Part shown: positions 30,610 to 63,077 of the stretch, piece after piece | Layout of the letters: every line of letters begins with the position of its first letter | Position numbering within the stretch: position 1 is the stretch's first letter | Source: Celeribacter naphthalenivorans | Lineage (GTDB): Bacteria; Pseudomonadota; Alphaproteobacteria; Rhodobacterales; Rhodobacteraceae | Length of the DNA: 64,000 nucleotides | Reading direction: 5' to 3' | NCBI RefSeq assembly: GCF_020524585.1 | Contig: NZ_JAIVLK010000005.1 | Span: 248,001 to 312,000, forward strand | Notes under the pieces: generated by a model | Database searches by the model: none | The model's input: only the letters and a program-made list of their open reading frames with translations | Told to the model about the DNA's origin: nothing | Position numbers and translations under genes: made by a program

Positions 30610-31266
30610 TTACTCTGCTGGCCAAGGTAAGCCGAAGTCTTGTTCTTTCATTGAATTCCAAAGGGCTTCAGGAGTGTGTTTTGCTTCTTCTTCATCCATT
30701 GCATTCATTCGATACCTATAGATCAGGCCCGTCAGGTTAGCTTTTGTAAGGCCTCCTGTTTCCTTGCTGCCGACTTGAGCAATGTATGTAGCTGTATATA
30801 AGGACCAGTCTTCATAGACTTGGCCTTCAAATGCATAGTTGCTGTAAATTACGAGGGGTATTTCACCCTCGGATATGCTTACATATCCGTCTAACGCAGG
30901 GGTGTTTTTCCAAATGTGTTGTTCAATATTGGCCATAATAGACCCCATCCATCGTACATGGCCCTTGGAATCAATGGGGACCGCCCTATCGATAATTTCA
31001 TTTGGGAAATATGCGTATCCTTGTAGAAACCTCATTCCTTGTTGGAGTGGTGCGATGGTGAGGCTATCCTCCTGAGAACCCGTATCGCCTTCTAAAACAA
31101 TGGAGCGGCGACTGTTTTCGAGGTTTTCTGTGTAAGTTTGTGCTCGGTCTGCGATCGAAACCCCAAATGCAGAGAACACGAATGAAAAAATTGCGATAAT
31201 CAAAGAAAGAACGTTAAGAATTCGATCGCCGTTCAATTTTGGAAAGAACTTAAATTTCCTATTCAT
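30610..31266 (-). CDS. Unknown membrane-anchored protein in a low-GC patch
   Basis: A 218-residue protein with one N-terminal transmembrane helix (LSLIIAIFSFVFSAFGVSI) after a short basic leader, so the bulk should face the periplasm. No catalytic motif or known domain is recognised. Codon use is markedly less GC-rich than surrounding genes and the flanks are also AT-rich, which suggests recent acquisition. It has no neighbour on the same strand close enough for an operon. Confidence 0.65.
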   Translation of the reverse strand: MNRKFKFFPKLNGDRILNVLSLIIAIFSFVFSAFGVSIADRAQTYTENLENSRRSIVLEGDTGSQEDSLTIAPLQQGMRFLQGYAYFPNEIIDRAVPIDSKGHVRWMGSIMANIEQHIWKNTPALDGYVSISEGEIPLVIYSNYAFEGQVYEDWSLYTATYIAQVGSKETGGLTKANLTGLIYRYRMNAMDEEEAKHTPEALWNSMKEQDFGLPWPAE

Positions 31267-31551
31267 GAATTATTTATTCGCCTTCATTTTTGTAATCTAA
31301 AAGTTCCAATTTGTCGGTCTCTTTAATCTATTACTAACTTCTCGCATTCGAACTAAAGAAGAATTTTACGGGGTGTACGCAACACTTGGATTTGTATTGA
31401 TTGACAATGGAGGGCTAAATGGGCGTCAGATTACTCGATCCCCTCCATTCTAAAAAGCTTGTATACCAGCATTCGTGCACTGCGTGTGACGGCTATGCAA
31501 ATGAGACTTTGAATAGGGAAGCGTGATTGATTTTCGATCTAAATGTCGTCC

Positions 31552-51044: not shown

Positions 51045-52100
51045 TCAACGCGCGAATGAGAAGCCGTAGATCAGTTGACGCAGGCCCAAGGCGGCGCCTG
51101 CGATGATCGCGGCCACGGTCACCGGCGCCGAATAGGCGAGGAGGGAAAAAGCCGACAGTCCCTGTCCGACCGTGCAGCCAAAGGCCACCACGGCGCCGAC
51201 GCCCATAAGCGCGGCGCCCATGATCTGACGTTTCAATTCGCGCGGGTCTTCGCAGGCTTCCCAACGAAAATGGCCTTTGATCAGCGAGCCGATCGCTGCG
51301 CCCGCAAGCACGCCAATGACGGAGCCGACGCCAAAGCCGGGCGAGGTGGCAGAGGAGGTCATGAGGTAGAAAAGCGTGTCTCCGATGGGCGCCGCGAAGG
51401 TGTGGGAGGCGACCTGCGTGGCCTCGAATGTCGCCTCGGACAACCACGCCGTGCCCGCCCAGCCGGAGGTGACGGCGAGGCCGACGGCCACGCCCCAGAG
51501 GATGAGTTTGCGTTCTGCGCGAAAGGCGCGGGACGACAGCGCCACGGCCAGAAAGAGCACACCGAAGCCGAGGCCGGTGGCGACGATGGGTAGGCCGAGG
51601 CTTTGGCCCAAACCATGCGCCAGACCGGGTAGGGGGCCTTCGGCGGGACGGGGCGGGAAGAGTGTGACGCGCAGCGCGGCCAGTGGGCCGTTCAGTGTGA
51701 TGTATGAGGTGAGGCCCAAGACGAGAACGATGACGAAATTGCGCAGGTCACCACCGCCCAGACGCGCCAGCGCGCCAAAGCCGCAATTGCCCGCGAGCGC
51801 CATGCCGTAGCCGAACACAAGCCCGCCGAAGATCGAGGCCATGGGCGACCATGCCAGCGCGAGGTAGGGCGTTTTGGTCGGATCGAAAAGGCCAAATCCC
51901 ATGAGGCTGAAACTGCCAATGAGCGCCACGCCCAAGGCCACGCCCCATTGCCGGGCGCGCAGATCAGAGCCTTGATAGAGCGCGTCTTCGATGGCGCCCA
52001 TGGAGCAAAACCGCCCCAGACGGGCGGCAAGTCCGAGGACCAGACCTCCAAACAGACCGATCAGGGCCGCAAGCAGCCCCGGTGCAACTGTGTCGAGCAT
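51045..52100 (-). CDS. soxT: YeeE/YedE sulfur-transport membrane protein (SoxT-like)
   Basis: A 351-residue inner-membrane protein with about nine helices. Conserved cysteines appear in GRFCSMGAIEDA, AGNCGFGALARLGGGD and FGCTVGQGLSAFS, the pattern of TsuA/YeeE thiosulfate carriers. In Pseudaminobacter the cluster order soxSRT includes this type of gene, where it is needed for sulfur oxidation. Here it is last in the minus-strand group soxS-HbpS-soxR-soxT. GGAGGAG lies directly before the ATG at 52100. Confidence 0.85.
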   Translation of the reverse strand: MLDTVAPGLLAALIGLFGGLVLGLAARLGRFCSMGAIEDALYQGSDLRARQWGVALGVALIGSFSLMGFGLFDPTKTPYLALAWSPMASIFGGLVFGYGMALAGNCGFGALARLGGGDLRNFVIVLVLGLTSYITLNGPLAALRVTLFPPRPAEGPLPGLAHGLGQSLGLPIVATGLGFGVLFLAVALSSRAFRAERKLILWGVAVGLAVTSGWAGTAWLSEATFEATQVASHTFAAPIGDTLFYLMTSSATSPGFGVGSVIGVLAGAAIGSLIKGHFRWEACEDPRELKRQIMGAALMGVGAVVAFGCTVGQGLSAFSLLAYSAPVTVAAIIAGAALGLRQLIYGFSFAR

Positions 52101-52140
52101 GTCTCCTCCCCTGATGCCCGGCGCGTCTCTGTCTTGGGGG

Positions 52141-52467
52141 TCAGGCTTTTTTCGGGCCACCATTCCCCGAACAGAACATGTCGTAGATCACTTCGAGGAT
52201 GCGTTTCGGGCGGTCATCCGTCAAAGAGTAGTAGATTGCCTTGCCTTCGCGGCGCGGCGTCACAAGACCCTCAAGGCGTAGCCGGGCGAGCTGTTGGCTC
52301 ACCGCGGCCTGACGCGCGGACAGAAGGTCTTCGAGTTCCGTGACGGATTTCTCGCCGGTCACCAGATGACACAGGATCATCAGCCGCCCCTCATGCGAGA
52401 GGGCTTTCAAAAGCTGCGATGCGTCGCAGGCGCTTGACATCATCACATCCAGGTCCTCTTCGGACAT
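52141..52467 (-). CDS. soxR: SoxR, ArsR-family repressor of sox genes
   Basis: A 108-residue winged-helix regulator of the ArsR family, subgroup BigR/SqrR/SoxR, which senses sulfane sulfur. It has cysteines at 14, 33 (RLMILCHLVTG) and 99 (IYDMFCSGNG). Cys33 and Cys99 are 66 residues apart, the spacing of the sensing pair in SqrR. The helix-turn-helix is VTELEDLLSARQAAVSQQLARL. I use the ATG at 52467; a GTG 14 codons upstream would add a short tail. Likely binds the ATTC-N8-GAAT sites described below. Confidence 0.9.
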   Translation of the reverse strand: MSEEDLDVMMSSACDASQLLKALSHEGRLMILCHLVTGEKSVTELEDLLSARQAAVSQQLARLRLEGLVTPRREGKAIYYSLTDDRPKRILEVIYDMFCSGNGGPKKA

Positions 52468-52540: not shown

Positions 52541-53053
52541 CTAAAAGGCGATTTGATCCATGATGGCGTCGATGCCTGCCTGCGCGCAGTCGGCATCGAG
52601 GTCCGGTCCGGGAGCGCCTGAGACTCCGATACCTGCTACTATAGAGCCTGACGCCTCAATCACAAGACCGCCTCCAAGGGCCAGAGGTTCGCTCAGCTCC
52701 CGGATGCCTGCCATCATCTCGCCCGGCGCGGTCAATTCGCCCAAGGACAGCGTGTCGGTGCGAAATGACACAGCGGTCCAGGCCTTGCGACGGGCGGTCT
52801 CGAAGACGTGAAGCCCGGCGAAGCGGTCGCGCACATAGACCTGCGGGATGCCGAAGCGGTCGACCACCATGACGCCGACCTGATAGCCCGCCTCGCGGCA
52901 GCTTTCCATTGCGGCGATGGCGGCGGTTTGGGCCACTTCGGGTTTCAGCACCTGAAAGGTGACGAAGGCATCGTCGTCTTGTGCGACGGCGGGTGTTGCC
53001 AAAGCTGCGGCGCCCATAGTGGCGCTTAGCGCCATGATTTTAAACAGTTTCAT
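52541..53053 (-). CDS. Secreted HbpS/GlcG-type (DUF336) protein
   Basis: A 170-residue protein with a signal peptide (LSATMGAAALATPAVA) and the HbpS-like (DUF336) fold. The conserved ALGGGLVIEASGSIVAGIGVSGAPGPDLDADCAQAGID segment is typical of the family. Members bind heme or cofactors; in sox clusters they are found next to soxR and soxS. A GGAGG box precedes the ATG at 53053. Periplasmic location fits a role with SoxS or Sox electron transfer, but this is inference. Confidence 0.85.
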   Translation of the reverse strand: MKLFKIMALSATMGAAALATPAVAQDDDAFVTFQVLKPEVAQTAAIAAMESCREAGYQVGVMVVDRFGIPQVYVRDRFAGLHVFETARRKAWTAVSFRTDTLSLGELTAPGEMMAGIRELSEPLALGGGLVIEASGSIVAGIGVSGAPGPDLDADCAQAGIDAIMDQIAF

Positions 53054-53085: not shown

Positions 53086-53499
53086 TCACCCGCCCGGCTG
53101 GACCTCCTGCACCGGGGCACCCGTCGTGATCTCTTTGAAATCCGAATGATCGCGCAGCACCATGGTCAGCATGGTCCAGAACAATTCATCACCCGCGTAG
53201 CCTTCGATCCGGCCCTGTTCCATCCCGTCCTCCACGAGAATGAAGGTGGGCGTAAAGATCACCGGGCCTTTGAACGACAAGTCCTCCGGCATCGGCGCGC
53301 GCAGGTCCACCCGGCGCAGGGGCGCATAGGCGCCCTCCGGCGTTTTCGGGTAAATCTCCGCGATCTCCGCGTTCCAGCGGGCGCAATAGGCACAGCCGTC
53401 TTGTTCCACCATCACCAGTTCCATCGAAGGCTCACAGGCGGAGGCGGGGAGAATCAGGGCAAAGAGGGTGGCCAGTGTGACCAGGATTCGTGTCAACAT
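53086..53499 (-). CDS. soxS: SoxS, periplasmic thioredoxin-like protein
   Basis: A 137-residue exported thioredoxin-fold protein. The signal peptide ends at LILPASA; the redox site is CAYC in DGCAYCARWN and a cis-Pro region follows in VIFTPTFILVEDG. SoxS of Paracoccus reactivates SoxY by reducing blocked cysteine. The ATG at 53499 gives the proper signal peptide. First gene of the minus-strand soxS-HbpS-soxR-soxT transcript, divergent from soxV. Confidence 0.92.
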   Translation of the reverse strand: MLTRILVTLATLFALILPASACEPSMELVMVEQDGCAYCARWNAEIAEIYPKTPEGAYAPLRRVDLRAPMPEDLSFKGPVIFTPTFILVEDGMEQGRIEGYAGDELFWTMLTMVLRDHSDFKEITTGAPVQEVQPGG

Positions 53500-53536
53500 A
53501 TCTCTACCGATTGACGGGTGCGACATAATCTACATA

Positions 53537-53552
53537 ATTTGAATATATGAAT
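53537..53552. promoter_or_regulatory. Putative SoxR operator, soxS/soxV gap
   Basis: ATTTGAATATATGAAT matches ATTC-N8-GAAT with one mismatch (ATTT). It lies 38 bases before soxS and 116 before soxV, in the region reported to be bound by SoxR in Pseudaminobacter. Confidence 0.6.
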
Positions 53553-53667
53553 GACACAAGCTTTGAGGCAATCACCAGAGGGTGACAGGCGCAAAGCTTG
53601 CGGGGAAGAGGAGCCCCGTCCGGAGGCGCAGGGATGCGCACACTGGGGGTCGATTTGGGAGGACCAT

Positions 53668-54423
53668 ATGCTGGACGTGACTTTTATTTCTGCCCTTTTG
53701 GGCGGGTTGGTGGTATTTTTCTCCCCCTGCATTTTGCCGATCGTGCCGTTTTACCTGTCCTATATGGCGGGCACCTCGATGGCCGACATCAACGCCGAGG
53801 GCGAATTGGCGCCGGGCGCGCGCAAACGGGCGGTGATCTCGTCGGTGATGTTCTCTTTGGGGATCATCACAGTGTTTGTCCTTCTGGGCGCGGCGGCGTT
53901 TTCGCTGTCTCAGGCGTTCCGCAGCCATCAGGACATCTTTCGCATCGCGTCGGCCGCCATCGTCTTTGTCATGGGGCTGCATTTTCTGGGCGTGATCCGC
54001 ATTGGCTTTCTCAATCGCCAGTTCCAGATGCAGGCGGGCGACACGCGCAATATGACCGTGTGGTCGTCCTACATCGTCGGCCTCGCCTTCGCCGCCGGAT
54101 GGACGCCCTGCGTCGGCGGCGTCTTGGTCGGCGTGGTGATGATGGCGTCGAATGAGGCGACCGCGATGCGCGGGCTGATCATGATGGTGGTCTTCGGCAT
54201 CGGCATGACCGCGCCCTTCGTGGTGGCCGCCGTGTTTATCAAACCCTTCCTCAAATTTGCGGCCAAATTCCGCCGCCATTTGCCGAAGGTCGAAAAGGTG
54301 ATGGGGCTTTTCCTCATCCTCTTCGCTATATTGATCGTCACCAATTCGGTGAACGTGATTGCGGCGTGGATGTTGGAGACCTTCCCCTCTTTCGCGAACA
54401 TCGGATCAAACGGGAGCCTGTAA
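53668..54423 (+). CDS. soxV: SoxV, CcdA-type membrane electron carrier
   Basis: A 251-residue inner-membrane protein of the CcdA/DsbD family with six helices. It passes electrons from cytoplasmic thioredoxin to the periplasmic SoxW. Two conserved proline-cysteine sites are FSPCILPIVPFYLS near residue 20 and AGWTPCVGGVLVG near residue 147. A GGGAGGACC run lies five bases before the ATG at 53668; the upstream frame covers the operator. First gene of the soxVWXYZ run. Confidence 0.96.
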   Translation: MLDVTFISALLGGLVVFFSPCILPIVPFYLSYMAGTSMADINAEGELAPGARKRAVISSVMFSLGIITVFVLLGAAAFSLSQAFRSHQDIFRIASAAIVFVMGLHFLGVIRIGFLNRQFQMQAGDTRNMTVWSSYIVGLAFAAGWTPCVGGVLVGVVMMASNEATAMRGLIMMVVFGIGMTAPFVVAAVFIKPFLKFAAKFRRHLPKVEKVMGLFLILFAILIVTNSVNVIAAWMLETFPSFANIGSNGSL

Positions 54424-54425
54424 AA

Positions 54426-55022
54426 ATGTTTAAACTCGCACGACGTACGCTTTTGTCTCTGGGTCTCGCTGCCTTTGCCTTTCCCGCGCTGGCGGTGGAA
54501 ATGGGCGATGACGGGCTACATAAAACCGCCTGGCAGCGCGACACCTTCAAGGACCTGCGCGAGGATTTGGCCGAGGCCAATGCAGAAGGGAAGCGCTTGC
54601 TCGTGATGGTCGAGCAGCGCGGCTGTATCTATTGCACCAAGATGCACGAAGAGGTCTATCCGGATCCGGAGATCACAAAGATGATCGAAGACAATTTCTT
54701 TGTCATCCAGATCAACATGTTCGGCGATGTCGAGGTGACGGATTTCGATGGCGAGAGCCTGCCGGAAAAAGACATGGTGCAGAAATGGGGCGCGCTGTTC
54801 ACGCCGACGAATCTCTATTTCCCCGAAGAGGTGGCCGAAGATGTCTCCGCCAAGGACGCAGCAGTGGCCACAGTGCCCGGCGCCTTTGGAAAGCTGACGA
54901 CCTACAACATGATGCAATGGGTGTTGGGGCATGGCTATGAGGGCGAGGAGCCGTTTCAAAAATACCATGCGCGCCAAGTGGTTATGCAGCAAGAGCAGGG
55001 GAAGCTTAAGGTTGGCGAGTGA
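54426..55022 (+). CDS. soxW: SoxW, periplasmic thioredoxin
   Basis: A 198-residue exported thioredoxin-like protein, partner of SoxV. A signal peptide (ARRTLLSLGLAAFAFPALA) precedes the CxxC site CIYC in EQRGCIYCTKMHEE. The start at 54426 is two bases after the soxV stop. The frame begins with an earlier ATG inside soxV, which is less likely. Confidence 0.95.
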   Translation: MFKLARRTLLSLGLAAFAFPALAVEMGDDGLHKTAWQRDTFKDLREDLAEANAEGKRLLVMVEQRGCIYCTKMHEEVYPDPEITKMIEDNFFVIQINMFGDVEVTDFDGESLPEKDMVQKWGALFTPTNLYFPEEVAEDVSAKDAAVATVPGAFGKLTTYNMMQWVLGHGYEGEEPFQKYHARQVVMQQEQGKLKVGE

Positions 55023-55058
55023 TATATGTTCGCGTATAGGTAACGCTGCGGTGCAGAA

Positions 55059-55078
55059 AAATTCAAGTATTTGAATTT
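55059..55078. promoter_or_regulatory. SoxR operator, soxW/soxX gap
   Basis: AAATTCAA-GTAT-TTGAATTT is a perfect 20-base palindrome containing ATTC-N8-GAAT at 55061-55076. It lies 37 bases after soxW and about 95 before soxX, where SoxR is known to bind in Pseudaminobacter. Confidence 0.8.
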
Positions 55079-55172
55079 GTCTCTTGCTCTGCGACATAAT
55101 GGCGCGCTACGCTCTTTAAAACAAACACCGCAGATATGCGGAAATGTAAGCACAGTCTTTTAGGGAGGAGAC

Positions 55173-55649
55173 ATGAAACGCATCGCAACCTGTCTTGTTG
55201 CACTCGGTCTGAGCACCGGCGCAGCATTGGCCGAAACGGCTCCGGGCGACGTTCAGTTCGACGACTACGGCGCGATTGAGGCCTCTCTGACCGGCACGCC
55301 GGGCAACGCGGAAGAAGGGCGCAAGATCCTGACCACGAAATCCATGGGCAACTGTGTGTCCTGCCATGCCGCCGACGCCTATGCCGATGTGCCGTTCCAC
55401 GGCGAGGTCGGCCCTTGGCTCGATGGCGCGGGCTCGCGCTGGTCTGCGGCCGAGTTGCGTGGCCTTGTGGTCAACGCCAAGATGACCTTTGAGGGCACTG
55501 TGATGCCGGCCTTTTACAAGGTCGACGGTTTCACCCGTCCGGGTGATGCTTACACGGGCAAGGCCGCGCCGGCCGATCTGCCGCCGATCCTCTCGGCCCA
55601 GCAGGTCGAGGATGTGGTCGCCTATCTTATGACGCTGACGGACGAGTGA
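55173..55649 (+). CDS. soxX: SoxX, cytochrome c subunit
   Basis: The 158-residue monoheme subunit of the SoxXA complex that couples thiosulfate to SoxY. The signal peptide ends ALSTGAALA; the heme site is CVSCH in MGNCVSCHAAD and the axial methionine is probably in GTVMPAFYKV. A GGGAGGAG site precedes the ATG. Confidence 0.97.
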   Translation: MKRIATCLVALGLSTGAALAETAPGDVQFDDYGAIEASLTGTPGNAEEGRKILTTKSMGNCVSCHAADAYADVPFHGEVGPWLDGAGSRWSAAELRGLVVNAKMTFEGTVMPAFYKVDGFTRPGDAYTGKAAPADLPPILSAQQVEDVVAYLMTLTDE

Positions 55650-55690
55650 TCTCCCGTCGGATCCTGACACTTAGAACTTAGGAGCAAACC

Positions 55691-56107
55691 ATGAATCTCA
55701 CACGACGTGACGCTCTGGCTCTGGGCCTTGGTGCGACTGCGGCGGCGTTTATGCCGCTGAGTGCGACCGCCGCTGCCGAAGACGCCATCGCCGCATTCAC
55801 CGGGGGTGCCGAGGCGGGCGCGGGCGATCTAAGCCTGACCGCGCCGGAGATCGCCGAAAACGGCAACACCGTGCCGATCGCTGTCAATGCGCCGGGCGCC
55901 ACGGCCATCGCGGTGTTCGCCACCGGCAACCCGACGCCTGAAGTGGTGGTGTTCAACTTCGGTCCGCTGGCAGGCAGCCAGGCGGCCTCCACCCGCATCC
56001 GTCTCGCTGGCACGCAAGACGTTGTGGCGGTTGCGAAAATGGCCGATGGCTCTTTCGTCCAAACCTCCGCCACGGTCAAAGTGACTATCGGCGGCTGCGG
56101 CGGCTAA
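55691..56107 (+). CDS. soxY: SoxY, substrate carrier
   Basis: The 138-residue sulfur-substrate carrier. A twin-arginine signal (TRRDALALGLGATAA) precedes the domain, and the sequence ends GGCGG, in which the Cys covalently holds the sulfur intermediate. It forms the SoxYZ heterodimer with the next gene, 25 bases downstream. Confidence 0.98.
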   Translation: MNLTRRDALALGLGATAAAFMPLSATAAAEDAIAAFTGGAEAGAGDLSLTAPEIAENGNTVPIAVNAPGATAIAVFATGNPTPEVVVFNFGPLAGSQAASTRIRLAGTQDVVAVAKMADGSFVQTSATVKVTIGGCGG

Positions 56108-56132
56108 CCCGATTTTTTAGGAGACAAAGACA

Positions 56133-56462
56133 ATGGCATCTGGTGTCAAACCCCGCGTGAAAGTCCCTAAATCGGCCTCTGCCGGTGAGGTGATCACGAT
56201 CAAAACCCTCATTTCCCACCCGATGGAATCCGGCCAGCGCAAAGACAGCGACGGCAACGTCATTCCGCGCTCGATCATCAACCGTTTCACCTGTGAATTT
56301 AATGGGCAGAGCGTGGTCGATGTGACGCTGGAACCGTCGATTTCGACCAACCCCTATATCGAATTCGATGCGACTGTGCCCGAGGCCGGTGAATTCAAAT
56401 TCACCTGGTACGATGACGACGGCTCCGTCTACGAGGATGCAAAAGCGATCGAAATCGCCTGA
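56133..56462 (+). CDS. soxZ: SoxZ, carrier partner
   Basis: The 109-residue cofactor-free partner of SoxY, without its own signal peptide; the dimer is exported by the SoxY Tat signal. Typical pieces are GVKPRVKVPKSASAGEVITI and a FTWYDDDGSVYEDAKAIEIA end. AGGAGAC precedes the ATG. Confidence 0.98.
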   Translation: MASGVKPRVKVPKSASAGEVITIKTLISHPMESGQRKDSDGNVIPRSIINRFTCEFNGQSVVDVTLEPSISTNPYIEFDATVPEAGEFKFTWYDDDGSVYEDAKAIEIA

Positions 56463-56531
56463 TCCAAGACCGCAAGCGCGTCCCGCCAAAGATGCGGGGC
56501 GCGCCAGCCAACTCTAGGGAGGAGATAACGC

Positions 56532-57386
56532 ATGAAAATCAATAAAATGCTCAGCACTGCGGCGGCTTTGACGGCGTTTGTGATCGCAACACCTGTGCTG
56601 GCGGATGAAGACGCAGAGCTGGTGATCAACGGCGAGATCGAGATCGTGACCAAGACGGCTGCGCCCGCGCATCTCGACGGTCACCTGAGCGAGATCATGT
56701 CCGGCTGGCGCTTCCGTTCGGATGACACGCAGGCCATGGAGATGGACGATTTCGACAATCCCGGGATGCTGGGGGCCGAAGCCGGGTTCGAACAGTTCGA
56801 GACCGTGATGGGGTCCGAGGGCAAATCCTGCATGGATTGCCACGACGGCGTCGAAAGCCTCGCGAATGTGCGTCCGACCTATCCGAAATGGAACGACGAC
56901 AAAGAACAGGTTTACACCATCCAGATGCAGATCAACGACTGTCTGACAGAGCGGATGGGGGCCGATGCGCAGAAATACGACAACAGCACCATGCTGAACT
57001 TCGAGGCGGCTTTGGCCTCTGTGTCGCGTGGCATGCCGGTGAATGTCGCCATCGACGGTCCCGCCCAATCCACTTGGGAGCAGGGCAAGGAGATGTATTA
57101 CACCCGCTACGGTCAGCTCGATCTGTCCTGTGCCAACTGCCACGAGCAAAACTACGGCAACATGATCCGCGCAGATCACCTGTCTCAGGGTCAGATCAAC
57201 GCCTTCCCGGCCTACCGTCTGAAGAACGCGCAACTGAATGGCGCGCATAGCCGGTTCAAGGGCTGTATCCGCGATACCCGTGGTGAGACGTTCAACGCGG
57301 GCTCGCCGGAATTTGTGGCGCTTGAGCTTTATGTGGCGTCGCGTGGCAACGGCCTCTCGGTCGAGGGCCCCTCTGTCCGCAACTGA
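56532..57386 (+). CDS. soxA: SoxA, diheme cytochrome c
   Basis: The 284-residue diheme subunit of SoxXA. After a signal peptide (TAAALTAFVIATPVLA), two heme sites are present: CMDCH and CANCH. The catalytic cysteine that binds sulfur is in FKGCIRDTRGE near residue 245. Having two heme sites distinguishes it from single-heme SoxA. The ATG follows AGGGAGGAG; a terminator lies just beyond its stop. Confidence 0.98.
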   Translation: MKINKMLSTAAALTAFVIATPVLADEDAELVINGEIEIVTKTAAPAHLDGHLSEIMSGWRFRSDDTQAMEMDDFDNPGMLGAEAGFEQFETVMGSEGKSCMDCHDGVESLANVRPTYPKWNDDKEQVYTIQMQINDCLTERMGADAQKYDNSTMLNFEAALASVSRGMPVNVAIDGPAQSTWEQGKEMYYTRYGQLDLSCANCHEQNYGNMIRADHLSQGQINAFPAYRLKNAQLNGAHSRFKGCIRDTRGETFNAGSPEFVALELYVASRGNGLSVEGPSVRN

Positions 57387-57397
57387 TCTTTGACGGG

Positions 57398-57426
57398 GCC
57401 CCGCTTGGCGACGAGCGGGGCTTTGT
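57398..57426 (+). terminator. Hairpin between soxA and soxB
   Basis: GCCCCGCT and AGCGGGGC form an eight-base stem with an eight-base loop, followed by TTTGTT. It starts 12 bases after soxA and may attenuate read-through into soxB. Confidence 0.65.
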
Positions 57427-57505
57427 TCCTCTCAATACATTCAAATTTGCGCATGAAACCTTTGGAAATGCTCAGGTTTTCTGCGTCCGACAACGGAGTT
57501 TCCGC

Positions 57506-59203
57506 ATGATTTCACGTCGTGATTTCCTTCAGGTGTCCATGGCTGCTTCGGCTATGGTGGGCGCCTCCGGCTTTGGCAACTGGGCGCGTCTCGCGGCGCA
57601 ACAGGCGCTGACGCAGGACCAGCTTTTGGAGTTCGACACGTTCGGCAACGTCTCTCTGATCCATGTCACCGACATTCATGCGCAATTGAAACCGATCTAT
57701 TTCCGCGAGCCGGAGATCAACATTGGCGTGGGCGACAACAAGGGCGCAGTGCCGCATGTGACGGGCGCGGAGTTCCGCAAACTTTACGGTATCGAGGACA
57801 ATTCCCCTTCGGCTTATGCGTTGAGCTACAATGATTTTTCCGCCTTGGGAAAAGCTTACGGCAAGGTTGGGGGCCTCGACCGGGTCGCCACCGTGATCAA
57901 CTCGATCCGCGCCGCACGCCCCGATGCGCTTTTGCTCGATGGCGGCGACACATGGCACGGCTCCTACACCTGCTACCACACGCAGGGTCAGGACATGGTC
58001 AATGTGATGAACGCACTGAAACCCGATGCAATGACCTTCCACTGGGAGTTCACGCTTGGCTCTGATCGGGTGCGCGAAGTGGTGGCCGATCTGCCCTTTG
58101 CGGCTCTGGGCGCCAATATCTATGACGCCGAATGGGACGAACCGGCGGAGGATTTCGCGCCCTATAAGTTCTTTGAACGTGGCGGGGTGAAGATCGCCGT
58201 CATCGGCCAAGCCTTCCCATATATGCCCATCGCCAACCCCGGCTGGATGTTCCCGGAATACTCCTTTGGCATTCGCACCGAGCGGATGCAGGAGGTCGTC
58301 GACGAGGTGCGCGGCATGGGCGCAGAACTGGTCGTTTTGCTGTCGCACAACGGGTTCGACGTCGACAAGAAGATGGCGTCGCTGGTGAGTGGCATCGACG
58401 TTGTGCTTTCCGGCCACACCCATGACGCGCTGCCGGAACCTGTGCTGGTGGGCGAGACGATCATCATTGCCTCGGGGTCCAACGGCAAATTTGTTTCGCG
58501 TGTGGATTTGGACGTGCGCGATGGCCGCATGATGGGCTTCCGCCACAAATTGATCCCCATCTTCTCCGACGTAATCGAGCCAGACAAAGAGGTCTCGGCG
58601 CTGATCAACGAACAACGCGCGCCTTACGAGGAGGCGATGGGCGAGGTGATCGGTCAGACCGACAGCCTCTTGTACCGTCGCGGCAACTTCAACGGCACTT
58701 GGGATGATCTGATCTGTGACGCGCTGTTGAGCGAGCGTGAGGCGGATATCGCGATGTCGCCGGGCGTGCGTTGGGGGCCGAGCCTCCTGCCGGGGGACAA
58801 TATCACCCGCGAGGACATCTGGAACGCCACCTCGATGACCTACGGCAAGGCGTATCGGAGCGAGATGACCGGCGAGTTCATCCATACGATTATGGAAGAC
58901 GTGGCCGACAACATCTTTAACCCCGATCCCTATTACCAGCAGGGCGGCGACATGGTGCGGATGGGCGGTCTTGGCTATCGCATCGACATCACCAAGCCGC
59001 AGGGCGAGCGGATTTCGGAGCTGACGCTTTTGAAAACCGGCGAAAAACTCGACCCGGCGAAAAACTACGTCGTGGCGGGCTGGGCCTCTGTGAATGAGGG
59101 CACCGAAGGGCCGCAGATCTGGGATGTGGTGGAGGATCACATCCGCAAACAAGGCACCGTCACGGTCGCGCCGAACACCTCGGTCGAGGTCATCGGCGCC
59201 TGA
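57506..59203 (+). CDS. soxB: SoxB, sulfate thiohydrolase
   Basis: The 565-residue dimanganese enzyme that releases sulfate from SoxY-bound sulfonate. A twin-arginine signal (SRRDFLQVSMAASAMVGASG) is followed by 5'-nucleotidase-type motifs: LIHVTDIHAQLKP, LLLDGGDTWHGS, FHWEFTLG and SGHTHDALPEPV. About 120 bases with a terminator and a weak operator half-site (57439-57449) separate it from soxA. Confidence 0.98.
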   Translation: MISRRDFLQVSMAASAMVGASGFGNWARLAAQQALTQDQLLEFDTFGNVSLIHVTDIHAQLKPIYFREPEINIGVGDNKGAVPHVTGAEFRKLYGIEDNSPSAYALSYNDFSALGKAYGKVGGLDRVATVINSIRAARPDALLLDGGDTWHGSYTCYHTQGQDMVNVMNALKPDAMTFHWEFTLGSDRVREVVADLPFAALGANIYDAEWDEPAEDFAPYKFFERGGVKIAVIGQAFPYMPIANPGWMFPEYSFGIRTERMQEVVDEVRGMGAELVVLLSHNGFDVDKKMASLVSGIDVVLSGHTHDALPEPVLVGETIIIASGSNGKFVSRVDLDVRDGRMMGFRHKLIPIFSDVIEPDKEVSALINEQRAPYEEAMGEVIGQTDSLLYRRGNFNGTWDDLICDALLSEREADIAMSPGVRWGPSLLPGDNITREDIWNATSMTYGKAYRSEMTGEFIHTIMEDVADNIFNPDPYYQQGGDMVRMGGLGYRIDITKPQGERISELTLLKTGEKLDPAKNYVVAGWASVNEGTEGPQIWDVVEDHIRKQGTVTVAPNTSVEVIGA

Positions 59204-59260
59204 AATCGGGCCTGACATCTGCCGCTCTGACCCTCGTTGGAGCGGTTTTTCTACAATGAA

Positions 59261-59282
59261 TTCATTCACATAAGAGAATGAA
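59261..59282. promoter_or_regulatory. Putative SoxR operator before soxC
   Basis: TTCATTC-ACATAAGA-GAATGAA is a seven-base inverted repeat and contains a perfect ATTC-N8-GAAT at 59264-59279. It lies 47 bases before the soxC start. Confidence 0.65.
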
Positions 59283-59325: not shown

Positions 59326-60624
59326 ATGAGTGAGACCCAAAACGACAATCGGAGCACCGGTCAGGGAACAAGCCGTCGCGCGTTTCTACGCGGCGCGGCT
59401 GCCACGGGCGTGGGACTGGCGGCGAGTCAGGCTGCCGCCGATGGCCCCGATCCGCTGATCACGGAAAAGCAAGATTGGGCGATGAGCCTCGGCGAAGGGG
59501 TCGATGAAACGCCCTATGGTCTGCCGATCAAATACGAGAGCGATGTCATTCGCCGCAATGTGCCGTGGCTGACCGCCGATCCGATCTCTTCGATCAACTT
59601 CACGCCGATCCATGCGCTCGACGGGACGATCACGCCGCAGGGCTGTGCCTTTGAGCGGCACCACTCCGGCGCGATTGAGTTGAAAAAGGAAGACTACCGC
59701 CTGATGATCAACGGGCTGGTCGATACGCCGCTGGTCTTCACCTACGAAGACCTCGAACGCTTCCCGCGGGTGAACAAGACCTTTTTCCTCGAATGTGCGG
59801 CCAACACCGGCATGGAATGGGCTGGCGCGCAGCTCAATGGCTCGCAATTCACCCATGGCATGATCCACAACATGGAATACACCGGCGTCACGCTGCGCAC
59901 TCTGTTGGAAGAGGCGGGGCTGGGGGCTGCGGGAGATCTCGCGGACAAATGGGTCTATGTCGAGGGCGCGGATGCGTCTTCAAACGGGCGGTCTATTCCG
60001 ATGGAAAAGGCGCTCGATGATTGCATGATTGCGTTTAAGGCCAATGGCGAAGCGCTGCGCATGGAGCATGGCTATCCGGTGCGTCTGGTCGTGCCCGGTT
60101 GGGAAGGCAACATGTGGGTGAAATGGCTGCGCCGTATCGAAGTGACCGCGCAAGCCATTGAATCGCGTGAAGAAACATCGAAATACACCGACACTTTGGC
60201 GGATGGCACCTCGCGCAAATGGACCTGGGTCATGGATGCGAAATCGGTGGTGACCTCGCCCAGCCCGCAGATGCCGATCACGCATGGCAAGGGGCCTTTG
60301 GTGATCACAGGTCTGGCTTGGTCGGGACGTGGCGCCATCACCGGCGTCGATGTGTCGAAAGACGGTGGCAAGACTTGGGAGAAGGCCCGTCTGGCCAATC
60401 CGGGCGCACCGATGGCGCTGACGCGGTTCTATCTTGATATCACTTGGGACGGTGAGGAAATGCTCCTGCAGAGCCGTGCCCATGATGACACGGGCTATGT
60501 TCAGCCGACCAAAGCGCAGCTCAGAGAGGTGCGCGGCGAGAACTCCGTTTATCACAACAACTGTATCCAAACCTGGCATGTCAAATCGAACGGGGAGGCG
60601 GAAAATGTCGAAGTTTCTTCCTAA
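59326..60624 (+). CDS. soxC: SoxC, molybdopterin sulfane dehydrogenase subunit
   Basis: The 432-residue molybdenum-cofactor subunit of SoxCD, which oxidises the sulfane sulfur on SoxY. A Tat signal (SRRAFLRGAAATGVGLAAS) precedes a sulfite-oxidase-like domain with FFLECAANTGMEW, in which Cys is the likely molybdenum ligand, and VPGWEGNMWVKWLRRIEV. The ATG at 59326 has GGGAG nine bases before it; the open frame upstream runs over the operator. Confidence 0.97.
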   Translation: MSETQNDNRSTGQGTSRRAFLRGAAATGVGLAASQAAADGPDPLITEKQDWAMSLGEGVDETPYGLPIKYESDVIRRNVPWLTADPISSINFTPIHALDGTITPQGCAFERHHSGAIELKKEDYRLMINGLVDTPLVFTYEDLERFPRVNKTFFLECAANTGMEWAGAQLNGSQFTHGMIHNMEYTGVTLRTLLEEAGLGAAGDLADKWVYVEGADASSNGRSIPMEKALDDCMIAFKANGEALRMEHGYPVRLVVPGWEGNMWVKWLRRIEVTAQAIESREETSKYTDTLADGTSRKWTWVMDAKSVVTSPSPQMPITHGKGPLVITGLAWSGRGAITGVDVSKDGGKTWEKARLANPGAPMALTRFYLDITWDGEEMLLQSRAHDDTGYVQPTKAQLREVRGENSVYHNNCIQTWHVKSNGEAENVEVSS

Positions 60625-61672
60625 ACTGATCCTCACCACGGCTCTCTCCGCGACATTGGCGATGCCGGCTTTCGCGGAGAAATTCGGTCTCGGTCGCGCG
60701 GCTCTGCCCGAAGAAATCGCCGCCTGGAACCACGATATTTCGCCCAATGGTGACGGCTTGCCGATTGGCTCCGGCTCGGTCGAAGATGGCGAGATGATCT
60801 TTTCCGAGAACTGCGCCGTCTGTCACGGCGAATTCGCGGAAGGTGTTGATAACTGGCCCAAATTGGCGGGTGGCGATGGCACTCTGGCCGACAAAGATCC
60901 GCTCAAGACCGTGGGCTCTTACTGGCCCTATCTGTCCACTGTTTACGACTATGTGCGTCGCTCCATGCCCTTCGGCGCGGCGCAGACCATGACGGATGAC
61001 GATGTCTACGCGATCACGGCCTATATCCTCTATTCGAACTACATCGTTGAGGATGATTTCGTGCTCTCGAACGAGAATTTCCTCGAGGTCGAGATGCCGA
61101 ATGCCGAGGGCTTCATCACCGATGATCGCGCCGAGACGGAATACACGATCTTTACTGAAGAAAACGCCTGTTACGAGAACTGTAAGGAGGTGGTCGAGAT
61201 CACCAAACGGGCGACCGTTCTGGATGTGACGCCGGAGGAGACGACGGAAGCTGCCGCCGAGCCTGTCGCGGAAGAGACAGTTCAGGTCGCGGTGGCGGAA
61301 GAGGCCCCCGCAGAGGAAGCACCGGTTGAGGTCGCAGCAGCCGCATTTGACGAGGCGCTGGCCGCCGAGGGCGAGAGCGTGTTCAAGAAGTGCAAAGCCT
61401 GTCACCAAGTGGGCGAGGGCGCCAAGAACCGCACCGGTCCGGTCCTCAACGGGGTGCTCGGAGCCACCATCGGTCATGTGGAAGATTTCAAATATTCCAA
61501 TGACTTCCTGGATGCGCGTGAGGAAGGGTTCACCTGGACCGAAGAGAACCTGATTGCCTATTTGCATAGGCCGAAGGCGATGTTCCCGCGGACCAAAATG
61601 TCCTTCGCCGGTTTGAAAAGCGACGACGATATTGCGGCGGTGATCGAATATCTGAAGGCCACGACGCAGTAG
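60605..61672 (+). CDS. soxD: SoxD, diheme cytochrome c subunit
   Basis: The 355-residue diheme partner of SoxC. A signal peptide (LILTTALSATLAMPAFA) precedes a first cytochrome domain with CAVCH. An Ala/Glu/Pro-rich linker of about 60 residues leads to a second class I cytochrome with CKACH and the Met ligand region RTKMSFAGLK. The start overlaps soxC by 20 bases. Having SoxCD means complete oxidation of thiosulfate without stored sulfur. Confidence 0.97.
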   Translation: MSKFLPKLILTTALSATLAMPAFAEKFGLGRAALPEEIAAWNHDISPNGDGLPIGSGSVEDGEMIFSENCAVCHGEFAEGVDNWPKLAGGDGTLADKDPLKTVGSYWPYLSTVYDYVRRSMPFGAAQTMTDDDVYAITAYILYSNYIVEDDFVLSNENFLEVEMPNAEGFITDDRAETEYTIFTEENACYENCKEVVEITKRATVLDVTPEETTEAAAEPVAEETVQVAVAEEAPAEEAPVEVAAAAFDEALAAEGESVFKKCKACHQVGEGAKNRTGPVLNGVLGATIGHVEDFKYSNDFLDAREEGFTWTEENLIAYLHRPKAMFPRTKMSFAGLKSDDDIAAVIEYLKATTQ

Positions 61673-61750: not shown

Positions 61751-62188
61751 ATGAAAACATTGTTCAAAACTGTCGCGCTCGCCTTGGTTTGTGCCACGCC
61801 AGCCTTGGCAAACGATCAGGCGATCACCTTTGACTATGACGGCACCTTCGAGGATGCGACCTTCGCGGTCGAGGATGCCATCGTCTCCAAAGGCCTCGTG
61901 ATCGACTACCGCTCGCACACTGGCGAGATGCTGGAGCGCACGAAAGCGGATGTCGGCTCCGAGGTGACGATTTTCGACGCGGCGGATGTGTTTCTGTTCT
62001 GCTCGGCGGTTGTGTCGCGGCAAGTGATGGAGGCTGATCCCGGCAATATCGTGCATTGCCCCTATTCGATCTACGTCGCGGATCGTGAAGGCAAGGTCAC
62101 GATCGGGTTCCGCGATTATCCCGACGGCCCGATGCAGGCGGTCGAAGATTTGCTGACAGAGATTGTCGAAGAGGCCACGAGCTTTTAA
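61751..62188 (+). CDS. DUF302 secreted protein
   Basis: A 145-residue protein with a signal peptide (LFKTVALALVCATPALA) and a DUF302 domain (ITFDYDGTFEDATFAVEDAIVSKG). The segment VFLFCSAVVSRQVMEADPGNIVHCPYSIYV contains two cysteines. DUF302 proteins often accompany sulfur or heavy-metal genes; the reaction is unknown. GGGAGG lies nine bases before the ATG at 61751. Likely cotranscribed with the next regulator. Confidence 0.88.
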   Translation: MKTLFKTVALALVCATPALANDQAITFDYDGTFEDATFAVEDAIVSKGLVIDYRSHTGEMLERTKADVGSEVTIFDAADVFLFCSAVVSRQVMEADPGNIVHCPYSIYVADREGKVTIGFRDYPDGPMQAVEDLLTEIVEEATSF

Positions 62189-62219: not shown

Positions 62220-62876
62220 ATGGATTGGATCGACCGGTTTGCGGGGCTCTCGACACTTGAGCCCAAGGTGCGCGCGCGTCTCGTGGCGCAGTCGCAGATC
62301 ATTCATCTGCCCGCTGGAACAATTTTGTTCGGCCCCGGAAAAAGCCCCGAAAACCTTTTGATGCTGATCGAGGGCACGGTGCGGGTGCAGCAGACCACCG
62401 AAGCGGGGCGCGAGATTGTGCTTTACCGGGTGCATGCTGGGGAGAGCTGTGTGATGACCACGGCCTGCCTGCTGGCCTATGAAGATTATAGCGCCGAGGG
62501 TATTGCCGAGACTGAAATCGACGCCGTCGCCATCCCGCGCCGGGTGTTCGACGATCTGGTCGCCACCTCGCAGAGCTTTCGCAATTTCGTGTTCTCCGCC
62601 TATTCGCGCCGGATCACCGATCTGTTCCATGTGATCGAAGAGATTGCGTTTCAAAAGATCGATATTCGGCTGGCGCAGAAGCTGTTGGAGCTGACCAACG
62701 GCGGGCCTGTGCTTAAGGCGACGCATGCGCAACTGGCCGCAGAACTGGGGTCAGCGCGCGAGGTGATTTCGCGTCAGTTGCAGGAATTCCAACGCCGCGG
62801 ATGGGTTCAAACCGCCCGCGGCGAGGTCAAGCTGACGGATCGCGAGGCGCTGGACGCGCTCGCGCATTCCGCCTGA
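62220..62876 (+). CDS. Crp/Fnr-family regulator
   Basis: A 218-residue activator or repressor with a cNMP-type domain (LPAGTILFGPGKSPENLLMLIEGTVRV) and a C-terminal winged helix (HAQLAAELGSAREVISRQLQEFQRRGW) carrying E-x-x-S-R in its recognition helix, the FNR pattern. Two cysteines only (GESCVMTTAC) rule out a four-cysteine iron-sulfur FNR. It meets the DUF2892 gene head-on with no gap. It may control the DUF302/DUF2892 pair. Confidence 0.92.
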   Translation: MDWIDRFAGLSTLEPKVRARLVAQSQIIHLPAGTILFGPGKSPENLLMLIEGTVRVQQTTEAGREIVLYRVHAGESCVMTTACLLAYEDYSAEGIAETEIDAVAIPRRVFDDLVATSQSFRNFVFSAYSRRITDLFHVIEEIAFQKIDIRLAQKLLELTNGGPVLKATHAQLAAELGSAREVISRQLQEFQRRGWVQTARGEVKLTDREALDALAHSA

Positions 62877-63077
62877 TTATTTCATCTTGCAGGTGTTGAT
62901 TCCGAAGATCGAATAGAGCGGGCAAGAGGACATCAGCCCGGTCACCAGCGGGATGATCCCGATCAAATAGAGCCAGCGCAGCGAGGCGTCGGCGTTCAGG
63001 AAGAACCCGAGGATGAGCGCAAGGCCGACAACGATGCGCAGGATGCGGTCAAGGCCGCCGACATTTTTTTTGAGCAT
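62877..63077 (-). CDS. DUF2892 inner-membrane protein
   Basis: A 66-residue protein of the DUF2892 type (YgaP transmembrane-domain-like): KKNVGGLDRILRIVVGLALI, a second helix WLYLIGIIPLVTGLMSSCPLYSIFGINTC with the family CPLY motif. The ATG at 63077 has GGAGG five bases upstream; that box itself follows a possible earlier ATG. Many DUF2892 proteins are fused to or lie near rhodaneses or sulfide genes. Confidence 0.9.
   Translation of the reverse strand: MLKKNVGGLDRILRIVVGLALILGFFLNADASLRWLYLIGIIPLVTGLMSSCPLYSIFGINTCKMK

Follow-up and report, generated by a model that had tools for sequence, protein, structure and literature searches.

Candidate SoxR operators before soxB and soxC point to a segmented sox cluster in Celeribacter naphthalenivorans

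The sox clusters of Paracoccus pantotrophus and Pseudaminobacter salicylatoxidans contain a gene for an ArsR-type repressor, SoxR, that controls the divergent soxS and soxV genes (PMC10451225, PMC5748708). The passages cited describe SoxR-controlled promoters at soxS/soxV and a sox cluster made up of several transcription units (PMC5748708, PMC3797975). Both features, a soxR gene within the cluster and a divergent soxS/soxV pair with a candidate SoxR site, are found in a stretch of 64,000 nucleotides from Celeribacter naphthalenivorans (assembly GCF_020524585.1, contig NZ_JAIVLK010000005.1, positions 248,001 to 312,000), hereafter the window, in whose coordinates all positions are given. In contrast to the two systems as described in these passages, the cluster in the window has extra candidate operators before soxB and before soxC, each behind a terminator-like hairpin. 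The cluster is likely split into several SoxR-controlled segments, each opened by an operator of the ATTC-N8-GAAT type, a probable and modular extension of the known SoxR circuit.

ATTC-N8-GAAT is the recognition sequence deduced for SqrR of Rhodobacter capsulatus (PMC9774250), and both this DNA word and the sensing cysteines of SqrR match those found here; according to the cited passages SqrR governs sqr and sulfide-dependent photosynthesis, whereas the present sites lie in the sox cluster. The SoxR of Hyphomicrobium denitrificans is likewise a two-cysteine protein, which shifted four of five DNA probes and is released by polysulfide through a sulfur bridge that joins the two cysteines (PMC10451225, PMC12423496). 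The Sox system of that organism is truncated, SoxCD being absent, and its genes are arranged differently; unlike the case here, no ATTC motif appears in the main text. The repressor and its word are known; judged from sequence, what appears to be new is the position of the sites, the terminator-operator module and the signs that this module comes and goes. A SoxR regulog may exist in RegPrecise. No report of operators before soxB or soxC was found in the open-access literature, a scope outside which Rother 2005 and Mandal 2007 lie.

The proposed segments are delimited by four candidate operators and two hairpins, listed below with intergenic gaps named by the last letters of the flanking genes (S-V for soxS-soxV, and so on).

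53537-53552, plus strand: S-V operator ATTTGAATATATGAAT, ATTC-N8-GAAT with one mismatch
55061-55076, plus strand: W-X operator ATTCAAGTATTTGAAT, exact word
57392-57427, plus strand: terminator-like hairpin following soxA; the folded piece gives -28.8 kcal/mol
57439-57454, plus strand: A-B operator ATTCAAATTTGCGCAT, before soxB, one mismatch
59221-59246, plus strand: intrinsic-terminator-like hairpin and T run following soxB; the folded piece gives -16.9 kcal/mol
59261-59282, plus strand: B-C operator TTCATTC-N8-GAATGAA, before soxC, with an exact core at 59264-59279

The original prediction, made from the letters of the window alone, had named three SoxR sites, in the S-V and W-X gaps and before soxC. 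All three are present where it placed them, the first with its one mismatch and the others exact, and the seven-base arms ascribed to the soxC site are there as described. The perfect 20-base palindrome claimed around the W-X site pairs at nine of ten positions (55059-55078). What had been taken for a half-site at 57439 is a full degenerate site, and the set grows to at least four, soxB having an operator of its own. A W-X operator reportedly belongs to the known SoxR circuit as well, as the original prediction stated for Pseudaminobacter, although no passage giving it was found.

As a motif, the bare word is weak evidence. The genome-wide scan, which covered exact words, returns 40 places; in the window the exact word occurs four times against 1.4 expected, a count reached by 4 of 100 shuffles, and the one-mismatch word is not enriched (21 matches against 26.1 expected). 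Since the bare word is not enriched, position and conservation were used as evidence instead, and these carry the case. The 64 kb window was scored with a weight matrix whose sole training set was the W-X sites from 61 other genera; the W-X site ranks first (score 29.2), the B-C site second (16.6), the S-V site fourth (14.5) and the A-B site sixth (7.9). The best matrix score of each gap was also compared with 20,000 shuffled and 20,000 first-order Markov gaps. The shares of shuffled and Markov gaps reaching the observed score are 0.0001 and 0.0013 for S-V, 0 and 0 for W-X, 0.003 and 0.010 for A-B, and 0.0006 and 0.0014 for B-C.

Conservation was surveyed across the family, in which SoxB was found in at least 246 of 394 genomes, listed by score. 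The sample comprises 109 genera with one species each, 29 from automatically collected loci and 80 fetched (60 from the upper list and 20 from lower down), two upper-list rows having been skipped where SoxB touched a contig end; owing to this choice of genomes it leans towards relatives of the window. Gaps were excluded when one of the genes went undetected, was encoded on the opposite strand or stood more than 700 nucleotides (nt) away, and loci with short flanks contributed no W-X or S-V gap, so that denominators differ. Start codons were chosen by script, which shifts some gap ends. Sixteen Celeribacter sox loci were examined alongside.

The exact word is present in the W-X gaps of 61 of 72 genera and of all 16 Celeribacter loci; soxR was found in 57 of the 61 loci with the word and in 8 of the 11 without it. 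With one mismatch allowed, the A-B gap holds it in 84 of 108 genera, at the same block as in the window, and in 16/16 Celeribacter loci, whereas the B-C gap holds it in 27 of 99 genera, 24 times exactly. Of the two extra operators, the one before soxB is the more widespread. The S-V site, whose left half is degenerate, is recovered in 18 of 71 gaps by the word and in 45 of 71 by a matrix score of at least 8. Between the genes of the proposed second segment the word is absent from other genera (0/78 X-Y, 0/105 Y-Z and 0/106 Z-A gaps; 289 gaps, 10.6 kb). As controls, the backwards word occurs in no gap, and five permuted dyads together turn up in two gaps of other genera, one S-V and one B-C, as well as in two Celeribacter S-V gaps. 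In 80 titled loci, which include two from Celeribacter and overlap in genera with the 109-genus sample, the exact word is found in 50 of 70 W-X, 21 of 78 A-B (52 with G[AC]AT) and 7 of 74 B-C gaps; the B-C word is rarer there than in the 109-genus sample.

The B-C site is not general, being missing from 72 of the 99 other genera and from 9 of the 16 Celeribacter loci. These nine, in which soxC copes without it, and the 40 exact words in the genome would fit a B-C word that is a chance match or a functionless relic in the window strain. Such an origin is nevertheless very improbable, given that an independent matrix scores the site second in the 64 kb and that 27 other genera hold the word at a similar distance from soxC. 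In all seven Celeribacter holders, moreover, the arms of the site are unchanged while part of the spacer varies, and a terminator always lies upstream. The site before soxC, which the original prediction set apart from the S-V and W-X sites, is therefore present and recurrent, and it is very probably a real, though labile, SoxR operator. In other genera, the interval between the B-C operator and the soxC ribosome-binding site also contains a conserved block with the consensus ATGATCTGA.

The proposed repressor is encoded in the cluster itself. The helix-turn-helix domain of SoxR matches PF01022 (HTH_5) with 36.3 bits against a cut-off of 22, and the protein aligns with the sequence group of PDB entry 6o8l (E 6e-38), named in the entry only as an ArsR-family regulator and which we take to be SqrR. 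In the helix-turn-helix segment the two proteins agree at 20 of 21 residues. Cys33 and Cys99 align with the cysteines of 6o8l and 3pqj in the two sensing-cysteine columns, outside which the third cysteine, Cys14, falls. SoxR does not reach the cut-off of the BigR equivalog NF040642 (97 against 155 bits) and is classed as a relative, not as BigR itself. It is the single regulator of the SqrR/BigR type in the genome; the two further ArsR matches with E up to 0.001 share 27% and 35% identity with it. SoxR would be a dimeric repressor that binds all four sites.

Another protein might instead read some of the sites. In other genera the A-B operator shares bases with a second dyad (consensus ACACATGCGCATGTGT), whose centre lies 4 nt downstream and to which a second factor may bind; A-B sites there have two centres of dyad symmetry (0.57 and 0.55). 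A reader of this dyad at A-B, and at B-C either the Crp/Fnr-type regulator encoded behind soxD (62220-62876) or another ArsR protein, would account for such sites. We regard this as quite unlikely, as a single centre dominates at the B-C and W-X sites (0.68 and 0.70), the word is identical to the site deduced for SqrR, and the Celeribacter A-B sites, inspected by eye, lack a full second dyad.

The word also occurs outside the sox cluster. The window accounts for four of its 40 exact genomic places; one, at a contig end (C13:132), was left out, and the other 35 were put through a crude coding test. Among exact words elsewhere in the genome that have no coding-like open reading frame (ORF) over them, the two highest-scoring precede genes related to sulfane sulfur. 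One, ATTCAATATATTGAAT at C1:194898 (L003:1501-1516; score 28.6), starts 74 nt before a gene for a 68-residue YgaP-like transmembrane protein and is exact in 11 and has one mismatch in 2 of the 13 Celeribacter genomes with this gene. The other, CATATTC-N8-GAATATG at C8:193080 (L268:1501-1516; score 16.9), starts 38 nt before a gene for an ETHE1/Blh-type dioxygenase, whose best NCBIfam match is Blh at 424 bits, under the full-length cut-off of 625. Among ten Celeribacter matches, the word is exact in seven, has one mismatch in one and is missing in the two least similar (57%), with varied spacers. The next two non-coding words (L005, 15.0; L259, 14.7) show no link to sulfur in their ORFs, for which no family search was made, and words of comparable score at L015 (18.9) and L262 (16.9) fall in coding-like sequence. 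Related repressors with such targets are BigR, which accompanies Blh in Xylella and Agrobacterium and controls a sulfur dioxygenase operon, and YgaV of Escherichia coli, which controls ygaVP, as given in the cited passages (PMC5823870, PMC9774250). Here the word likewise precedes a dioxygenase-domain gene and a YgaP-like gene, but both are on other contigs than soxR, which sits in the sox cluster. The pattern suggests one repressor with a small regulon consisting of sox, the dioxygenase gene and the YgaP-like gene.

A GC-rich hairpin followed by a T run was found after both soxA and soxB by our own scan and folding. The original prediction had treated soxXYZAB as one unit, which the first of these hairpins would divide between soxA and soxB; the second would cut soxB off from soxCD. 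The hairpin after soxA is found in 90 of 108 genera, where shuffled gaps give 2.0, and that after soxB in 7 of 53 gaps longer than 40 nt, where they give 1.2. Of 82 A-B operators examined, 80 have a hairpin in their gap, and in 61 of these the distance from hairpin end to operator start is 16-18 nt; its trimmed standard deviation is 1.2, against 5.8 for the distance from operator to start. In the B-C gaps of all seven Celeribacter holders the hairpin-operator distance is 17-18 nt. This tight geometry is evident at A-B family-wide and at B-C within Celeribacter, and not at B-C elsewhere, where 24 of 27 gaps have a hairpin at 7-43 nt and a T-rich stretch is constant at 12-15 nt upstream of the operator. 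Because the operators before soxB and soxC stand at a near-constant distance behind a terminator, terminator and operator can be regarded as a module.

Promoter-like sites are listed at the first two operators and none at the last two. A scan for sigma-70-like promoters gave the following:

53511-53538, plus strand: sigma-70-like promoter TTGACG-16-CATAAT towards soxV
55071-55100: promoter-like site TTGAAT-18-CATAAT, its -35 overlapped by the right arm of the W-X operator

The S-V operator overlaps both the final two bases of the soxV -10 and, at 53542-53547, a weak -10 facing left, and TTGACG is kept in 15 and TTGAC in all 16 Celeribacter S-V gaps. At A-B and B-C, a search by eye for -10 and -35 boxes led to nothing. 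As no sigma-70 promoter is recognised before soxB or soxC, the third repressor-controlled promoter that the original prediction placed before soxC is unproven. In other genera the operators start a median of 45 nt (A-B) and 41 nt (B-C) before the start codons, leaving room only for a transcription start near the operator.

These findings could also describe a repressor-gated terminator, in which SoxR bound some 17 nt beyond the hairpin would stop RNA polymerase on the T tract, making termination efficient, while its release would permit read-through into soxB or soxCD. The tight hairpin-operator spacing, the promoter scan without hits in both gaps and the short distances to the start codons are in keeping with it. 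On the other hand, read-through of a hairpin as strong as that after soxA would be poor without antitermination, a qualifying hairpin is present in only 9 of the 16 Celeribacter A-B gaps, at 11-18 nt, and the loose B-C hairpin spacing of other genera, with its constant T-rich stretch, suits a promoter element equally well. Such a gate is unlikely; if it existed, sulfane sulfur would determine how much of the sulfur-carrier half of the pathway is made relative to its hydrolase and dehydrogenase half, and bacteria would tune this ratio by gaining or losing the terminator-operator module. Given the strength of the soxA hairpin, the reading favoured over a SoxR block past the terminator is that the A-B and B-C operators each cover a promoter of a weak or unusual kind. 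Transcription would then terminate at the hairpins and start again from local promoters under these operators, with separate expression of soxCD.

Several observations weigh against a cluster divided into four SoxR-controlled segments. The A-B site has a low matrix score, and A-B words in other genera are mostly ATTC-N8-GCAT (50 of 84, with 32 exact and two left-half variants). Two unrelated places, 31255 (15.8, rank 3) and 38639 (11.9, rank 5; inside long ORFs on both strands), are among the top six matrix scores of the window. The promoter scan lists no sigma-70-like site at A-B or B-C, and its total for the region (5 against 3.1 in shuffles) is not significant. An independent terminator scan lists the soxB hairpin and not that after soxA; over the region it counts 8 hairpins against 9.4 in shuffles, which is no excess. 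The lack of a regional excess of promoters or hairpins slightly lowers confidence in the four-operator explanation. Outside Celeribacter, the linkage of B-C operator and terminator is loose (6/27 against 4/72, Fisher p 0.023; this and the Fisher tests below count genera as independent although they are related). B-C operators occur only in soxB-soxC gaps longer than 50 nt (27/47 against 0/52), a restriction that is partly trivial, short gaps having no room for one. Finally, the nearest named relatives (L016 and L017, probably counted among the nine site-less loci) lack the B-C word, which means that soxCD works without this site.

The distribution of the soxC module points to gain and loss. 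Within Celeribacter, 7 of 16 loci have the B-C operator together with the terminator, and the other nine have neither. Of the 27 other genera with a B-C operator, 11 lack the soxB operator and 9 the soxA terminator, against 9 of 71 (p 0.004, kinship ignored) and 7 of 71 (p 0.011, likewise); B-C operators are commoner where the soxB operator or the soxA terminator is lacking, as though the boundary had shifted. The 34 positives on a tree of 112 loci call for no fewer than 24 changes of the B-C trait (29 on average in shuffles, 22 at the lowest), a clustering too weak to claim a single origin. Within the Celeribacter tree, early branches hold the site and a large clade lacks it, except for the window strain and G016 inside that clade, a pair with support 0.83 nested among site-less species. 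Loss and regain, repeated loss or recombination may each explain this history.

The proposed circuit would operate as follows. In the absence of a sulfur substrate, a SoxR dimer would occupy all four operators, one at the divergent soxS/soxV genes and one each before soxXYZA, soxB and soxCD. Sulfane sulfur derived from thiosulfate would bridge two SoxR cysteines, upon which SoxR would be released and the segments expressed; this mode of release is assumed here by analogy with the described two-cysteine repressors. The terminator-operator pair would be gained or lost as a module at a gene boundary, and its loss would merge soxB with soxCD.

The source genome (4.36 Mb in 29 contigs) groups with Celeribacter, and the closest titled relatives of its SoxB are those of C. 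ethanolicus (96%) and C. baekdonensis (93%). The window carries a complete sox cluster, with four genes from YeeE-like to soxS reading leftward and soxV to soxD rightward:

51045-52163, minus strand: YeeE-like transporter gene, grouped with soxR, the HbpS-like gene and soxS
52141-52467, minus strand: soxR, ArsR-type repressor of the SqrR/BigR type, 108 residues from the chosen ATG
52541-53053, minus strand: HbpS-like gene, between soxR and soxS
53086-53499, minus strand: soxS, thioredoxin-like, with a Thioredoxin_2 match below its cut-off
53668-54423, plus strand: soxV
54426-55022, plus strand: soxW
55173-57386, plus strand: soxX, soxY, soxZ and soxA
57506-59203, plus strand: soxB, thiosulfohydrolase (TIGR04486, 835 bits)
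59326-61672, plus strand: soxC (by TIGR04555) and soxD (by position and cytochrome c matches)
61751-62188: DUF302 gene, after soxD
62220-62876: Crp/Fnr-type regulator gene (Pfam), after the DUF302 gene

The name soxS, assigned from position, presumably follows common usage. The HbpS-like gene occupies the soxR-soxS interval in all 16 Celeribacter loci, and a heme-binding ORF is reported at the equivalent place in a Sulfitobacter, in the passage cited (PMC11034169). One Celeribacter genome (G003) has soxB as two overlapping open frames (L114 and L119), a frameshift or an assembly error. The soxC, soxD, DUF302 and Crp/Fnr-type genes would form one transcript, making the regulator gene possibly part of the soxCD unit. 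An exact word behind the regulator gene, at 62899, was set aside (matrix score 1.5, rank 19). The third matrix score of the window belongs to TTTCCTATTCATGAAT at 31255-31270, which overlaps the start of an ORF at 30610-31266 on the minus strand.

The survey offers a testable rule, namely that operator words stand at segment boundaries, none having been seen inside segments, and that those at soxB keep an almost constant spacing from a terminator. SoxCD decides whether the sulfane sulfur bound to SoxY is fully oxidised to sulfate or left for other routes, as set out in the cited passage (PMC10451225). Given this role, a separate switch for soxCD could alter the outcome of thiosulfate oxidation, which could matter in a common marine group, and sister species with and without the soxC module provide a natural comparison.

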